From assembly GCF_002214565.1 (NCBI RefSeq), contig NZ_CP015106.1, positions 124,001 to 188,000 on the forward strand: 64,000 nt of DNA, written 5' to 3'. The position numbers and the translations under genes were made by a program. This DNA comes from Thermococcus radiotolerans. Its GTDB lineage: Archaea; Methanobacteriota_B; Thermococci; Thermococcales; Thermococcaceae. Positions 904 through 7,554 of the stretch are shown here, piece by piece (the first letter of the stretch is position 1; each line of letters starts with the position of its first letter). The notes beneath the pieces were generated by a model that did not search any database, had not been told where the DNA came from, and worked only from the letters and a program-made list of their open reading frames with translations.

Positions 904-2046
904 ATGAACGTCGTCATAGTCAGATACGGAGAGATAGGAACGAAATCCAGGCAGACGAGGAGATGGTTCGAGAGCATACTCATGAACAACATCCGCGAGG
1001 CCCTGGTGAGCGAGGGGATTGAGTTCAAAAAGGTCGAGGCGAAGCACGGAAGGATTCTCGTGAAGACGAATAAAGCTGGAGAGGCCGTTGACGTTCTCAG
1101 GCGGGTCTTCGGCATAGTGTCGCTCTCCCCGGCGATGGAAATCGACGCCGAGCTGGATAAGATCAACAGAACGGCTCTAAAGCTCTTCAGGAGGAAGAAG
1201 AGGGAGCTTGGCCTCGAGAAGCCGAAGTTCCGAGTCACAGCGAGACGTATAACCAAGGAGTTCCCGCTGAAGAGCCCAGAGGTTCAGGCTAAGGTCGGCG
1301 AGTACATCCTTGAGAACGAGGAGAGCGAGGTTGACCTCCACAACTACAACATCGAGGTCGGCGTCGAGCTGATGGAGGGCAAAGCCTACGTCTTCGTTGA
1401 CAAAATCTACGCCTGGGGCGGTCTTCCCATCGGCACCCAGGGCAAGGTGGTGGCACTGCTCAGCGGCGGCATAGATTCGCCGGTTGCCGCTTTCCTCATG
1501 ATGAAGCGCGGCGTTGAGGTCATTCCCGTCCACATATACATGGGCGAGAAAACCCTTGAGAAGGTGCGCAAGATATGGAACCAGCTCAAACGGTACGGCT
1601 ACGGCGGAAAAGGCGAGCTGATAGTCGTCAAGTCCAAAGAGCGTGAGATAATCCTTGAGAAGTTGCGCGAGATGAAGAAGGAGAAGTACACCTGCGTCTT
1701 CTGCAAGTACATGATGGTGAGGCACGCGGATAGGATAGCCCGGGAGTTCGGGGCGAAGGGTATCGTCATGGGTGATTCCCTCGGGCAGGTAGCTTCACAG
1801 ACCCTTGAGAACATGTACATAGTCAGCCAGGCGACGGACCTGCCGATATACCGTCCGCTTATAGGCCTTGATAAGGAGGAAATAGTTAGAATCGCCAAGG
1901 AGATAGGAACCTTCGAGCTCTCAACGTTGCCGGAGGATGAGATTCCGTTCATACCGAAGCATCCCGTTATAAGGGGCTCCTGGGAGGAGTTCAGGAAGCT
2001 CTATCGGGCGGTTTTTGGAGAGGAGCCCAGGAAAAGGCAGTGCTGA
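904..2046 (+). CDS. thiI: tRNA 4-thiouridine synthase ThiI (THUMP + PP-loop ATPase)
   Basis: The 380-residue protein has the N-terminal ferredoxin-like/THUMP RNA-binding region (about residues 1-165) and a PP-loop ATPase domain with SGGIDSP near 187. ThiI adenylates U8 of tRNA and replaces its oxygen with sulfur. There is no rhodanese domain, as usual for archaeal ThiI. A CxxC pair lies at C264/C267. In Methanococcus maripaludis ThiI three cysteines (265, 268, 348) are reported to bind an Fe-S cluster; here the position equivalent to 348 is Ile347, so the third ligand is missing, although a final Cys380 exists. A second, THUMP-less copy of the catalytic domain lies at 3659-4249 and keeps that cysteine. 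Confidence 0.95.
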   Translation: MNVVIVRYGEIGTKSRQTRRWFESILMNNIREALVSEGIEFKKVEAKHGRILVKTNKAGEAVDVLRRVFGIVSLSPAMEIDAELDKINRTALKLFRRKKRELGLEKPKFRVTARRITKEFPLKSPEVQAKVGEYILENEESEVDLHNYNIEVGVELMEGKAYVFVDKIYAWGGLPIGTQGKVVALLSGGIDSPVAAFLMMKRGVEVIPVHIYMGEKTLEKVRKIWNQLKRYGYGGKGELIVVKSKEREIILEKLREMKKEKYTCVFCKYMMVRHADRIAREFGAKGIVMGDSLGQVASQTLENMYIVSQATDLPIYRPLIGLDKEEIVRIAKEIGTFELSTLPEDEIPFIPKHPVIRGSWEEFRKLYRAVFGEEPRKRQC

Positions 2047-2055
2047 GGTGCTCCC

Positions 2056-2625
2056 ATGGACTTCTCCAAGATGTCCGCGTACATCAGCATTTCCCTTCCC
2101 ATCCTCTTCATCGTGGGGCTGCTTATCGTCCTGAGCCGGAATCCCTGGTTCTCCTTCACGGGAAACGCCCTGAGCGACATGGGCTCAGTACGGAACCCGG
2201 TGAACTACTACTTCAACGGCTTCCTTATGGTCTTCGCTGTCATCGGCTTCATAGCCGCCATTGGCGCTCTGAGAAACGGTCTGTCCTACCTAATGCCCCT
2301 CGCGATGGTTTTCCTGTTCCTCGTGGGAGTTTTTCCCGAGGAGTACGCGCCGCACGCCCCGGTGGCGGTTTCCTTCTACGTCCTCGCCCTCGTTGATATA
2401 ACGATCATCGGGCTGAAGCTCGGCAGGAATGGAATGTCGGCAGGCTACATCTGGAGCGTTCTGGCGGTTCTCGCCTTCGCCCTGATGCTCTATCTCGTTA
2501 AGGCGAGGGTTTTCAAGGGGCTCGCGATTCCGGAGCTGGTCGGTGCGGCCACGATACTGGCGTGGTTCGTCTACATCGGCCTGCTCCAGCTGGAGGTTCG
2601 TAGGAATTCCTACAGAAACCTTTAA
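2056..2625 (+). CDS. DUF998-like multi-pass membrane protein
   Basis: This 189-residue protein is mostly hydrophobic with about six transmembrane segments. The segment NPWFSFTGNALSDMGSVRNPVNYYFNGFLM resembles the signature N-terminal region of DUF998 proteins (A-L-S-D-x-G loop between the first two helices); only part of it is quoted as evidence, the family call rests on overall resemblance. Function unknown. The ATG sits ten bases after the thiI stop and follows GAGGTGC, so the two genes are probably one transcript. Confidence 0.72.
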   Translation: MDFSKMSAYISISLPILFIVGLLIVLSRNPWFSFTGNALSDMGSVRNPVNYYFNGFLMVFAVIGFIAAIGALRNGLSYLMPLAMVFLFLVGVFPEEYAPHAPVAVSFYVLALVDITIIGLKLGRNGMSAGYIWSVLAVLAFALMLYLVKARVFKGLAIPELVGAATILAWFVYIGLLQLEVRRNSYRNL

Positions 2626-2655
2626 ATATCATGATGCTGTAGGAATGGCTACACG

Positions 2656-3000
2656 GTGAAGGACGTGCCCGTGAACCTTGATGACCTGAAGGAGAACATC
2701 CGGGAGTACATAGAAACTGGAGAAGACGCTTTCAAGAAGGGTAGGTATAACTCCGCGTCAATACTGTATTTCAAGGCTCTCGTTGGAATATGTGACTACG
2801 TCATCAAGCGGGATCTGAACCTGGAACCCAAGAATCACAGTGAGCGATTTGCGATTTTGAGGCTTCACTACCGTGATCTGTACCGTATCGTCAGCAAGTT
2901 CTTTGATTTCTACAGGGATGCATACGAGAGGAGGCTCACGAGGGACGAGGTGGGGGCGTTGAGGAATGAGGTTCTCAAACTTACCGATAGAATTAAGTGA
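2656..3000 (+). CDS. HEPN-like helical protein, partner of the downstream nucleotidyltransferase
   Basis: The 114-residue, all-helical protein contains the pattern A-F-K-K-G-R-Y-N-S-A-x-x-L-Y-F-K-A-L, typical of HEPN domains (two-helix hairpins found in RNase toxins and in nucleotidyltransferase partners). A possible R-x6-H motif occurs in RFAILRLH, close to but not clearly the catalytic R-x4-6-H of active HEPN RNases. It starts with GTG; a strong TATA-like block (CTTTAAATATC, about 2617-2628) lies close upstream, so the message has almost no leader. Its 3' end overlaps the nucleotidyltransferase gene by 35 bases, so the two are made together. It may be an MNT/HEPN toxin-antitoxin-type pair; the assignment of toxin is not proven. 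Confidence 0.66.
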   Translation: MKDVPVNLDDLKENIREYIETGEDAFKKGRYNSASILYFKALVGICDYVIKRDLNLEPKNHSERFAILRLHYRDLYRIVSKFFDFYRDAYERRLTRDEVGALRNEVLKLTDRIK

Positions 3001-3616
3001 ACTGGAGCAGGCCGCGGAGGAATTTAGTAAGGAGCACGGAAGGGTCTTTGACGTGGTTCTCTACGGCTCTGTGACTCAGGGGAAAGAAGCCCCAAACGAT
3101 TTCGACTTCATGGTACTTCTCACCGGGGCAGATGAGTCGGAGAGGTTTGAGCTTGCCTTCGAGTTCAGGGAGATGCTGATTGACATGGGGTTCCCGCATG
3201 AAAGACTGGACGTTAAGGCGATGAACCTCGAGCAAATGTGGGACCCAAACTACCTCGCCGTTCCAGGGCTGGTTATCACCGGCTATTCACTTATCAGGAG
3301 GCGTCCCCTTCATGAGCTGATGAACGGGGAGGGATATGCGCTGTTCATTCTCGATGTCAGGGGGATGACAAAAAACGAGAAGAACAAGTTCAGCTTCGCA
3401 CTCCGGGGCAGGGACGGGAAAACCGGAGTGTTGAGAGACCTGGAGGGACGCTACCTTGCCCCATGGGTCGTTCTTCTTCCCGTGGAGGCCACTTACAGGT
3501 TCAAGGAGTTTCTAAAAATGTGGAAGGTGCCTTATGAACTCTATCTGATGTTCGGAACTCTCTACGAGTCAAAAGACTGGAGGATTGAGGAGGGCATCGT
3601 GAGGCCTCAACCTTAA
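2966..3616 (+). CDS. Nucleotidyltransferase-domain protein (MNT-like) with C-terminal extension
   Basis: The 216-residue protein has a polymerase-beta-type nucleotidyltransferase core: Gly34-Ser35, then Asp45-x-Asp47 (NDFDF) and a third carboxylate at Asp82 (RLDVKAM), the metal-binding set of the superfamily. The remaining 120 residues form an extension (ALRGRDGKTGVLRDLEGRYL) that minimal MNT antitoxins lack. Family members transfer NMP groups to proteins, RNA or antibiotics; MNT antitoxins AMPylate or bind HEPN toxins. The start codon lies inside the HEPN-like gene, indicating translational coupling. The pair sits between thiI and its short paralogue, but a functional link to thiolation is only positional. 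Confidence 0.72.
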   Translation: MRFSNLPIELSELEQAAEEFSKEHGRVFDVVLYGSVTQGKEAPNDFDFMVLLTGADESERFELAFEFREMLIDMGFPHERLDVKAMNLEQMWDPNYLAVPGLVITGYSLIRRRPLHELMNGEGYALFILDVRGMTKNEKNKFSFALRGRDGKTGVLRDLEGRYLAPWVVLLPVEATYRFKEFLKMWKVPYELYLMFGTLYESKDWRIEEGIVRPQP

Positions 3617-3658
3617 GTTGAGGAAAGCTTCATATATTCTCCCCCGCTTTCCTCAATC

Positions 3659-4249
3659 ATGAAGGCAGTGGCGCTCCTAAGCTCGGGCATTGACTCGCCG
3701 GTGGCAATCTACCTCATGCTTAGAAAGGGCTTTGAGGTAACTCCGGTTCACTTCAGGCAGAGCGGCACGAAGGAGTCCAAGGTTTTTGAGCTCTGCGAGG
3801 TTCTCGGAAGGTACGGAAGGCTGAACGAGCCGGTTATAGTGGATTCTTACGAGGAACAGGCGCCGGTTTTCTCGAGGCTGGCCGAGATTGGAAAGGGGAA
3901 GTGGACGTGCCTTTTCTGCAAGTGGACGATGCTGAGGAAGGCCTGTCGGATAGGGCATCGGATTGGGGCAAAGGCGATAATCACCGGCGACAGCCTCGGC
4001 CAGGTGGCAAGCCAGACCCTCGACAACCTGCTCATCATAAGCACCGCGAGCGACCTTCCGATTCTGCGGCCGCTCATAGGCCTTGACAAGGAGGAGATAG
4101 TCAGGATCGCAAAGGAGATAGGGACGTTCGAGATAAGCATCGAGCAGGAGGAGCCGTGCCCCTTCGTGCCGAGGTATCCCGTTGTTAGGGGCTCCCTCGG
4201 TGAGTTCGAGAGGATAAAGGAGAGGCTCGTGAGGGAAGGGGTGCTTTAA
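3659..4249 (+). CDS. Stand-alone ThiI-like PP-loop protein (no THUMP domain)
   Basis: The 196-residue protein aligns end to end with the C-terminal catalytic half of ThiI at 904-2046: LLSSGIDSPVA (residues 6-16) is the PP-loop, and GDSLGQVASQTLDN and RPLIGLDKEEIVRIAKEIGTFE are nearly identical in both. It lacks the THUMP domain, so it would need another way to bind RNA or acts on another substrate. It has C84-x2-C87 and C167, with an 80-residue interval identical to the reported Fe-S ligands 268 and 348 of methanococcal ThiI. A TATA-like TCATATATTC lies about 25-30 bases before the ATG, so it is probably read from its own near-leaderless promoter. Possible roles are sulfur transfer to another tRNA site or to a cofactor. 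Confidence 0.85.
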   Translation: MKAVALLSSGIDSPVAIYLMLRKGFEVTPVHFRQSGTKESKVFELCEVLGRYGRLNEPVIVDSYEEQAPVFSRLAEIGKGKWTCLFCKWTMLRKACRIGHRIGAKAIITGDSLGQVASQTLDNLLIISTASDLPILRPLIGLDKEEIVRIAKEIGTFEISIEQEEPCPFVPRYPVVRGSLGEFERIKERLVREGVL

Positions 4250-5223: not shown

Positions 5224-5745
5224 ATGAACGTGTTTAAGGGCACCCTCGAACTGTTCGAGAAGTACAAGCCGACCCCCTGGTCAAACTCTCAGCAGAGAGG
5301 GGGGATGTCTTTTGCCAAGTTAGAGTTCTTTAACCCGTTCAGCAGGAGCATAAAGGAGGGGGCCGTTTTTAACATGCTTACGAAGGCCCTGGAGCGCGGG
5401 GACATCAACGGCACCGCTCTTTTCGAGGCCACATCCGGCAACGTCGGAATCGCCATGGCGGCGCTGGGCAACGTTTTCGGGGTGAAGTTCAAGGCATATC
5501 TGCCGAGACCAACGCCCAGAGCGACGCAGGTTCTCCTGAAGGTTCTGGGCGCGGAAGAGGCCATCGAAGGGGCAATCCGCGTTGCCAGGAGCGGCGGTCT
5601 TCTCGTAGGTCTCAGCTCCGGTGCCGTTTTCAGGGCCTATGAGAAGATCGCCGGAGAACTCGGCGAGAAAACCTACGTCCTCATCTTCCCGGACGATGGG
5701 TTTAAATACGTGGAGGTCTTTGAAAACCATTTGGGGATGACATGA
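5224..5745 (+). CDS. Cysteine-synthase-like PLP enzyme with a large internal deletion
   Basis: The 173-residue protein carries both ends of a fold-type II PLP enzyme of the cysteine synthase family but not the middle. N-terminal landmarks are FNPFSRSIKEGAVF (PLP lysine in SIK) and FEATSGNVGIAMAAL (substrate-binding Ser/Asn loop); the C-terminal ones are GLLVGLSSGAVFRAY and VLIFPDDGFKY. Relatives are about 290-310 residues long; here LLKVLGAE runs straight into EAIEGAIRVA, skipping roughly 120-130 residues that normally include the glycine-rich phosphate-binding loop. The stretch SNSQQRGGMS near residue 21 also looks unlike the family. The frame is intact, but without the phosphate loop it is unlikely to be a working PLP enzyme; it is a probable decaying gene. 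Confidence 0.75.
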   Translation: MNVFKGTLELFEKYKPTPWSNSQQRGGMSFAKLEFFNPFSRSIKEGAVFNMLTKALERGDINGTALFEATSGNVGIAMAALGNVFGVKFKAYLPRPTPRATQVLLKVLGAEEAIEGAIRVARSGGLLVGLSSGAVFRAYEKIAGELGEKTYVLIFPDDGFKYVEVFENHLGMT

Positions 5746-6086: not shown

Positions 6087-6182
6087 ATGGGTCGTCTCTC
6101 GAACCGGTTTTGCGGTTCTTGGTGCGGTTTGCGGAACCGTTTTAAGAGTTCGATAAAAAACTTTATACTGGGGGTGGACACC

Positions 6183-6881
6183 ATGGGAGAGAATCTTGAG
6201 AAAACCGTTTTTGGGTACGCCGAGACCATCAGACCCGGTGAACTGGTTCTCGTGGAGTACACATCCAAGGAACCAGTTTACCTGCTTCTCTACGAGGTTC
6301 TCAAATACGCGAGACACAATGGCCTTCCCTACGTAATAGTTGACGTGCTCGACGGGTTGCACGTCGTGAGGGCCCAGTTCAGGTTCGCGGGCCTCGATAC
6401 GTCCCCAATCGATGGCGCTCCAGTGATAAAGATCGGCGGAAGGCTGGACACAGGCAGGGTCCTGGCAAAGATTGACGAGGTTACGGAGCTCCCGATACTG
6501 AAGAGGCGCTTCATGGAGCTCCTTGAGAGCATCGGTGAGGAGATGGGCAGGGAGTCTTTAATCAGGATTGTGATCGGGGCCACGGAGCTTCTCCAGCAGC
6601 TGGAGAGCGACCCGATGAGGCGCGAGGAATTCTTTGCCAGCATAATAAGGCCGATGGTTGGAAACCCCAGAAGTAGAGGCCTCGTCTTCATCAACAGGAA
6701 GCGCGTGGAAGGGCCGTGCATTAAGGAGGTGGAGGAGATTTCCACCCGTGTCCTAAGAACCCGGGTCGAGGACGGACGGTTCGTGGTGGAGGTCGTCAAG
6801 TCGATTTACTTCGATGAATACGGTACCGAAGTGGCGTTTGAGCCAGGCACCATGGGAGGCGGCCAGAATGACGGCGAATAA
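6183..6881 (+). CDS. DUF257 family protein, copy 1
   Basis: The 232-residue protein matches the DUF257 family, a group I know mainly from Thermococcales. Characteristic is the opening RPGELVLVEYTSKEPVYLLLYEVLKYARHNGLPYVIVDVLD (first 20 residues quoted elsewhere as G-E-L-V-L-V-E-Y) followed by DGLHVVRAQFRFAGLD. The alternation of strands and helices resembles a RecA-like fold, but no Walker A motif is present. Function unknown. I chose the ATG at 6183 because it follows GGGGGTGG and matches the start of copy 2; an in-frame ATG at 6087 would add 32 unrelated residues. The next gene is a paralogue overlapping it by 14 bases. Confidence 0.78.
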   Translation: MGENLEKTVFGYAETIRPGELVLVEYTSKEPVYLLLYEVLKYARHNGLPYVIVDVLDGLHVVRAQFRFAGLDTSPIDGAPVIKIGGRLDTGRVLAKIDEVTELPILKRRFMELLESIGEEMGRESLIRIVIGATELLQQLESDPMRREEFFASIIRPMVGNPRSRGLVFINRKRVEGPCIKEVEEISTRVLRTRVEDGRFVVEVVKSIYFDEYGTEVAFEPGTMGGGQNDGE

Positions 6882-7554
6882 AGCCGTGGAAGAGGCCATT
6901 GAGAGCATCGGACTCCTTCAGCCGGGAGAGGTTGTGGTGGTGGAGTACGATTCCCTCGCCCCGGTTCATCTCGCGGCGTCCATAGCCCTCCTCGACCTCA
7001 GCGGGGAGAGGCATATTATAGTCAACGATATCTTCGACCAGCTCCACGTTATACGAGCCCATCTTTCGATAATAGGCGTTGACACTGGGTGGATGGACGA
7101 GATACCCGTGATTAAATTCGGGGGCGTTCTCCATACGGGCAACGTGATCAAAAGGATAAGCGTGCTCAAGGCAGCCTCGATATGGCACAGGGAGTACCTG
7201 GAAGCCCTCGAAGCCTCCCGCGGGCTGAAGTTCGTGGTGACGCTGGGACTCGAGAAGCTCATAACGGTTAAGACAGACATTCCCTCCGCCTCCATGTGCC
7301 GCATGTGCATGGCATCATCCATGGGCTCGGAGGACGTGATTATGATGGCGTTCGTCAACAGGGAGATGCTCCCCGAAAGTGCCCTAGAGGACATAAGAGA
7401 GCTGGCCAGCAGGGTTTTCGAGCTCAGCTTCAGGGACGGCAGGCTCGTGCTCCGCGTGGTTAAGTCGCCCGCCCTTGAGCGCTACGGCTCCGAGTTCTCG
7501 GTCAGCGCCAGTGAACTCGTGGAGTACCTCAAGGGGAGGAGTGGCGGTAAATAG
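6868..7554 (+). CDS. DUF257 family protein, copy 2
   Basis: This 228-residue protein is a diverged paralogue of the preceding gene: LLQPGEVVVVEYDSLAPVHL aligns with RPGELVLVEYTSKEPVYL, FDQLHVIRAHLSIIGVD with LDGLHVVRAQFRFAGLD, and VIKFGGVLHTGNVIKRI with VIKIGGRLDTGRVLAKI. It differs by a short cysteine pair in SMCRMCMASS (about residues 150-159), absent in copy 1, which might bind metal or form a disulfide. The ATG at 6868 lies within the end of copy 1, after GGGAGGCGG, so expression is coupled. The two may form a heteromer; function unknown. Confidence 0.78.
   Translation: MTANKAVEEAIESIGLLQPGEVVVVEYDSLAPVHLAASIALLDLSGERHIIVNDIFDQLHVIRAHLSIIGVDTGWMDEIPVIKFGGVLHTGNVIKRISVLKAASIWHREYLEALEASRGLKFVVTLGLEKLITVKTDIPSASMCRMCMASSMGSEDVIMMAFVNREMLPESALEDIRELASRVFELSFRDGRLVLRVVKSPALERYGSEFSVSASELVEYLKGRSGGK

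Follow-up and report, generated by a model that had tools for sequence, protein, structure and literature searches.

In the [4Fe-4S] class of ThiI/TtuI, exemplified by the enzymes of Methanococcus maripaludis and Pyrococcus furiosus, the defining features are a PP-loop, a CxxC pair, and a third cysteine (PMC5372739, PMC9957541), and in the methanococcal ThiI the pair and the third cysteine are all reported to be needed (PMC5372739). The ThiI of Thermotoga maritima is a dimer formed mainly via the PP-loop domains, in which the N-terminal ferredoxin-like domain (NFLD) and the THUMP domain of one subunit hold the RNA and position U8 in the active site of the partner subunit (PMC4041423). The product, 4-thiouridine (s4U), is possible in archaeal tRNA at position 9 besides position 8 (PMC6313347). 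Several ThiI homologues are described per Pyrococcus genome, including PH1313, a protein with conserved residues missing, for which the accessible parts of the report name no partner (PMC9957541).

Here we describe a pair of ThiI-like genes, A and B, in a 64,000-nucleotide stretch of the Thermococcus radiotolerans genome (contig NZ_CP015106.1, positions 124,001 to 188,000; hereafter, the window). A encodes a full-length protein with isoleucine in place of a cysteine found in every other type of active-looking ThiI PP-loop domain sampled, and B encodes a stand-alone PP-loop protein that keeps this cysteine. We favor, with moderate confidence, the reading that the two form an s4U synthetase of the [4Fe-4S] type, a heteromer whose catalytic subunit would be B, served by the THUMP domain of A, with the site of A itself retained and one of its cysteines relocated.

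Genes A and B and their relatives in Thermococcales

For comparison, A- and B-like places were located in 94 Thermococcales genomes, and 140 stretches were fetched and their proteins read. These fall into five classes: A (n = 70); A' (n = 11), with a PP-loop domain that lacks SGGIDS and CxxC and ends before column 347; S (n = 3), a short PP-loop protein nearest to A; B (n = 74); and type C (n = 44), which is full-length and ~47% identical to A and of which none was found in the genome of the window. Gene absences in metagenome-assembled genomes (MAGs) may be assembly gaps. The features of the window, with their conservation in this sample, are as follows.

904-2046, plus strand: gene A, a full-length ThiI/TtuI-like protein of 380 aa (ferredoxin-like, THUMP, and PP-loop domains; TIGR00342)
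910-1128, plus strand: ThiI ferredoxin-like domain of A (residues 3-75; PF22025, E = 6.5e-18)
1147-1401, plus strand: THUMP domain of A (residues 82-166; PF02926, E = 1.2e-13)
1432-2007, plus strand: PP-loop domain of A (residues 177-368; PF02568, E = 8.1e-66)
1462-1479, plus strand: PP-loop motif SGGIDS of A (residues 187-192), intact in 69 of 70 A proteins
1693-1704, plus strand: CxxC of A, comprising C264 (TGC, 1693-1695; 68 of 70 A proteins) and C267 (TGC, 1702-1704; all 70)
1942-1944, plus strand: Ile347 of A, codon ATT, in a column that is Cys in other ThiI PP-loop domains
2041-2043, plus strand: C-terminal Cys380 of A, codon TGC, a candidate substitute for Cys347
3659-4249, plus strand: gene B, a stand-alone PP-loop paralogue of 196 aa without THUMP (NF006222)
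3680-3697, plus strand: PP-loop motif SSGIDS of B (residues 8-13), in all 71 readable B proteins
3908-3919, plus strand: CxxC of B, comprising C84 (TGC, 3908-3910) and C87 (TGC, 3917-3919), in 74 of 74 B proteins
4157-4159, plus strand: third Cys of B (C167), codon TGC, 80 residues after C87, in 74 of 74 B proteins
2056-2625, plus strand: DUF998 membrane-protein gene between A and B (PF06197, E = 2.5e-13)

The cysteine positions of both proteins, Ile347, and the 80-residue interval had been named in an earlier reading of this DNA by sequence alone (the original prediction), and all were verified at the codon level. A scores 346.8 bits against the ThiI/TtuI model TIGR00342 (curated cutoff, 264.5), against which B, with 182 bits, falls under the cutoff; B scores 323.7 bits against NF006222/PRK08349, named "hypothetical protein" (curated cutoff, 251), a cutoff that the C-terminal half of A likewise passes with 267.4 bits. 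Profile searches with the 196 aa of B gave no THUMP and no ferredoxin-like match. In BLASTP, residues 181 to 366 of A align to residues 2 to 186 of B with 55% identity (E = 4e-68) and I347 stands opposite C167, two residues that MAFFT also places in one column; this identity, the agreement of the two programs, and the lack of any gap near the column rule out a chance shift of the alignment. The AlphaFold2 model of A (predicted local distance difference test [pLDDT], 92.6) matches T. maritima ThiI (4kr7) with template modeling (TM) scores of 0.88/0.87 and 1vbk with scores of 0.74/0.91, and that of B (pLDDT, 94.5) matches the PP domain of 4kr6 with a TM score of 0.88. Interrupted copies of B also occur, with an internal TGA in genome G029 (locus L050), a frameshift in G041 (L061), and fragments in G015 (L036).

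Column 347 and the C-terminal cysteine

Column 347 holds isoleucine in 55, valine in 11, methionine in 1, and cysteine in just 3 of the 70 A proteins. It is cysteine in 74 of 74 B proteins, in 44 of 44 type C proteins, and in all S proteins, and the same holds for every scorable ThiI PP-loop domain outside Thermococcales, a few loci there having no readable tail. By motif, we take the column to be that of Cys344 in Escherichia coli ThiI. Since the cysteine stands in all other scored ThiI proteins, including bacterial and archaeal ones without any CxxC, its loss in A is unusual family-wide, and the residue lost is one common to the whole family and more than an Fe-S ligand position. The original prediction had treated the column as a ligand position, by analogy to C265, C268, and C348 of the methanococcal enzyme (the numbering is its own); the need for a CxxC and a third cysteine in that enzyme agrees with the literature cited above, but the role of the column seems to be wider. 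Judged by sequence features, A thus departs from ThiI/TtuI at the conserved cysteine of the PP-loop domain and, with respect to the [4Fe-4S] subclass, has the CxxC without a third cysteine in the usual column, while B has the PP-loop, the CxxC, and the third cysteine at the 80-residue interval.

The alignment across Thermococcales that the original prediction had proposed establishes that the loss is lineage-wide, and the occurrence of cysteine in other A proteins of this order, which it had linked to a sequencing error at Ile347, is confined to the 3 exceptions. Such an error is ruled out, as 67 of 70 orthologues lack the cysteine and two changes separate ATT from TGT or TGC. All three A proteins with Cys347 come from genomes without detected B or type C. 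Cys347 is present in 3 of 10 A proteins that lack an intact B alongside and in none of the 60 that have one (Fisher P = 0.002), an association for which a tree-aware test offers 1 to 3 independent pairs, too few for significance. Of the trees, run in quick mode, the one built from whole proteins nests two of the three (from G034 and G067) in the main A clade; the G034 protein lies beside that of G015 there and outside this clade in the PP-domain tree, so that its Cys347 may represent regain, gene conversion, or retention.

The C terminus of A offers a candidate replacement. A ends in cysteine (C380) in 66 of 70 cases, and in 47 of 70 the protein has exactly three cysteines, at 264, 267, and 380. 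C380 is present in 65 of the 67 A proteins without Cys347 as against 1 of the 6 A or S proteins with it (Fisher P = 8e-6, a value that ignores kinship). From this pattern, we infer that Cys380 most likely replaces the lost Cys347 in A, and one suggestion of the original prediction, Cys380 as an alternative donor, emerges as a strong candidate.

Split gene pairs in other archaea and the surroundings of A and B

In six Pyrococcus genomes, P. horikoshii included, no ThiI-type gene was found besides A' and B (no type C), and at the sequence level B holds the only complete catalytic site; two further genomes of this group have A', B, and type C. (Genomes other than P. horikoshii are called Pyrococcus here by virtue of sharing its genus code, g3.) The A' protein of P. 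horikoshii (G006) is the PH1313 sequence (1VBK). In G001, G050, and G055, a degenerate A' is followed directly by an S protein with all motifs, and in G050 and G055 these two are the only ThiI proteins found. The S gene starts inside or immediately after the end of A' in all three (L094, L071, and L075 for G001, G050, and G055, respectively), an arrangement that suggests that translation of the catalytic gene is coupled to that of the tRNA-holding gene. A single origin of the degenerate A' within Thermococcales is not rejected (approximately unbiased test, P = 0.30).

Beyond Thermococcales, three other families of the Thermococci class (G094, G095, and G112 to G114) have one gene that matches the THUMP half of A and a second, separate one that matches its PP-loop half. 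The THUMP proteins read in those families have lost the motifs of the PP-loop domain, and the cysteine triad is complete in the separate PP-loop proteins. In G110, the PP half was found without the THUMP half. The G112 THUMP protein with a pseudo-PP-loop domain lies in an open frame of 432 aa (L238, 997-2292), the C-terminal part of which looks NUDIX-like by eye. An equal pair occurs in one Aenigmatarchaeota genome, in one Thermoplasmata genome, and in further members of the class to which the latter belongs. By match ranges in a translated search, 98 Thermoplasmatota genomes comprise 53 with both halves (most of them known by match range only), 6 with the THUMP half only, 1 with the PP half only, and 18 with a full-length protein; with the last group excluded, the halves co-occur with a Fisher P of 1.2e-12, which is not tree corrected. 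Wherever readable, the stand-alone PP proteins have the whole cysteine triad, except for one Parvarchaeal protein without CxxC.

We tentatively propose, as a possibility somewhat short of even, that archaea have a third class of s4U synthetase, in which a tRNA-holding THUMP protein with a dead PP domain and a separate small [4Fe-4S] PP-loop catalyst form a heterodimer. It would be the common form in the sampled Thermoplasmatota; several Pyrococcus genomes would have it as their only detected ThiI-type set, and the Thermococcus A-B pair would be a partly split version with a ligand cysteine at the C terminus. A search of the open-access literature, judged mostly by title and abstract, turned up no description that we recognized as a split ThiI, and priority is not established by it.

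In all 58 fetched loci holding both genes, A and B lie on the same strand and within 2.9 kb of each other. The gap between them is ~450 to 640 bp in most loci and >800 bp in 13 of the 58; the spot thus seems to take up insertions. In the window, the interval 2656-3616, between the DUF998 gene and B, holds a small open reading frame (ORF) and then an overlapping nucleotidyltransferase-like ORF (PF18765/PF01909, below cutoff), a pair that resembles a HEPN-MNT pair. Further downstream, a 173-aa PALP-fold ORF (5224-5745) matches PF00291, a model of 295 positions, in two stretches and may encode an internally deleted pyridoxal-phosphate enzyme, and two DUF257 genes, related to a Pyrococcus protein with no assigned function, stand in tandem at 6087-7554.

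Explanations weighed and comparison with known systems

The contact between A and B, a cluster in B, and a role for Cys380 are what we infer from the observed sequences, alignment columns, domains, trees, and phyletic patterns. A and B would be the two halves of a duplicated and partly split tRNA uridine-8 sulfurtransferase (ThiI/TtuI). B would be the PP-loop catalytic subunit, with a complete [4Fe-4S]-type site and no tRNA-holding module of its own, and A would hold the 3' end of the tRNA with its ferredoxin-like/THUMP module. In ThiI, the PP-loop domain of each subunit receives U8 from the THUMP domain of its partner, so that a dimer of A and B could place U8 in the site of B. A THUMP protein that retains a PP-loop-like remnant could, together with a free PP-loop domain, rebuild one working half of the dimer. 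In Thermococcus, A would retain its ATP site and CxxC under constraint, with the third cysteine shifted from 347 to 380; in Pyrococcus and several other archaeal groups, the arrangement would be further along, with the sole catalytic site on a stand-alone PP-loop protein beside an apparently inactive THUMP protein.

Sequence divergence bears on how far A has given up catalysis. Across 61 genomes with A and B, the mean p-distance is 0.111 for the PP domain of A, compared with 0.167 in the THUMP half of the same protein and 0.266 in B, and the PP-loop, CxxC, and ATP-contact residues of A are nearly invariant (PP-loop and CxxC, 68 to 70 of 70). The pattern of decay is a different one: in the eight Pyrococcus genomes with A' and B, the corresponding values are 0.386 for the PP remnant, 0.187 for the N-terminal half, and 0.174 for B; the ratio of the B distance to that of the N-terminal half is 0.93 there and 1.6 beside an intact A, and B is relatively more constrained in Pyrococcus, as the partner of a degenerate A'. 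Given the strong constraint on its PP-loop domain, A of T. radiotolerans is probably not merely an RNA binder, and a purely RNA-binding A in this genome, with a PP domain that diverges more slowly than the THUMP half, is unsupported. The division of functions put forward in the original prediction, RNA binding in one copy and sulfur chemistry in the other, accordingly fits the relatives, where the THUMP protein lacks the catalytic motifs and the short protein has them all, but not its extension to A as an RNA binder only in the genome of the window.

A heteromer with B as its catalyst is favored by the Pyrococcus genomes with A' and B only, the three genomes with A' and S, the gene pairs of other archaea, the cysteine triad of nearly all readable stand-alone PP proteins, the closeness of A and B on one strand, the presence of s4U in a Thermococcus species with A and B only (see below), the geometry of the T. 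maritima dimer, and the relative constraint on B in Pyrococcus. Several points weigh against it. Conservation within the pair is highest, in Thermococcus, in the PP-loop domain of A, a pattern not required if A were purely a binder and B the catalyst. Neither gene is indispensable, as A alone was found in six genomes (several of them incomplete MAGs, and one, G041, with a broken B) and type C alone in five. The pseudo-PP domains lack the ATP-contacting loop near the dimer interface, and their dimerization may therefore differ from that of ThiI. The genomes with A' and B may be without s4U; P. horikoshii is reported not to have been examined for s4U (PMC9957541). Thermococcus kodakarensis (G024, identified by a RuBisCO identical to 1GEH) has A and B, with no type C found. 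s4U is present in its tRNA, with no gene named for it in the portions of the report available (PMC11323500). With only these two genes, A and B together or A alone likely suffices for s4U in this species, and its s4U could thus come from A alone.

This last option is part of a wider alternative, which we consider unlikely but the most serious competitor, that A makes s4U8 unaided, its Fe-S or catalytic cysteine having moved from 347 to C380, and that B is an A-independent paralogue acting on another target, such as U9 or another RNA. The slow divergence of the PP-loop domain of A relative to its THUMP half and to B, the 65 of 67 proteins with Cys380 in place of Cys347, the loss or breakage of B in several genomes that keep A (G015, G034, G041, and G059), and the possible s4U9 of archaea (PMC6313347) all speak for it. 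Yet B has no RNA-binding domain, and in Pyrococcus, in G050 and G055, in the groups coded f2 and f5, and in most sampled Thermoplasmatota, a stand-alone PP protein beside a site-less THUMP protein is the only ThiI-type catalyst found. An improbable alternative is that A is decaying and has left the chemistry to B or type C; losing Cys347 would be an early step to the dead state of PH1313, and C380 would be incidental. Its end state does exist in the 11 A' proteins, and a few A proteins of the g4 and g5 groups have damaged motifs (SGSIDS in G078, YTYVFC in G082, and YIGIFC in G088); but the PP-loop, CxxC, and C380 are kept in 66 to 70 of 70 in a slowly evolving domain, 67 proteins share the substitution without decay, and the Cys347-bearing A proteins of G034 and G067, in the main clade and in genomes without detected B or type C, suggest that A can be an enzyme. 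That C380 instead acts as a cap, an additional or alternative ligand to the cluster of A, silencing its site and leaving A as a scaffold for B, has a precedent in the ADAT3 C terminus that caps a zinc site in a tRNA-modifying heterodimer (PMC8216470) and agrees with the frequency of C380 and of the three-cysteine set, but is very improbable, as a silenced site would not require conserved PP-loop and ATP-contact residues.

If the heteromeric reading is true, it would explain PH1313, which has a solved structure without a proven function, and give a function to the NF006222 family, still named hypothetical. It would mean that a sulfurtransferase can be split into a tRNA-holding and a sulfur-chemistry chain, as the known dimer geometry permits, and would provide candidate s4U genes for archaea in which no full-length ThiI is detected. 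The near relatives with and without Cys347 and Cys380 make the relocation of an essential Fe-S or catalytic cysteine testable.

Compared with known systems, B and type C are like the [4Fe-4S]-type ThiI/TtuI in having the PP-loop, the CxxC, and the third cysteine; B differs in lacking the ferredoxin-like and THUMP domains, and A has these domains but its third cysteine is away from the usual place. PH1313 (1VBK), annotated as a "ThiI-like protein" of P. horikoshii, is orthologous to the N-terminal half of A but is shorter and has lost the PP-loop and CxxC, both of which are kept in Thermococcus A. The bacterial ThiI proteins (E. coli, Bacillus anthracis 2C5S, and T. maritima 4KR6) share domain order and fold with A; they lack the CxxC and keep the column cysteine, the reverse of A, which is also without a rhodanese domain. 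As working analogies, Ncs6/Ncs2 and ADAT2/ADAT3 are two-subunit tRNA-modifying enzymes, and in ADAT the catalytic subunit is joined by an inactive homologue, in which a ferredoxin-like domain at the N terminus may bind tRNA (PMC8216470). Both differ from the putative A-B complex in their target positions, ADAT also in being a deaminase, and the A-B contact is predicted from the comparisons above.

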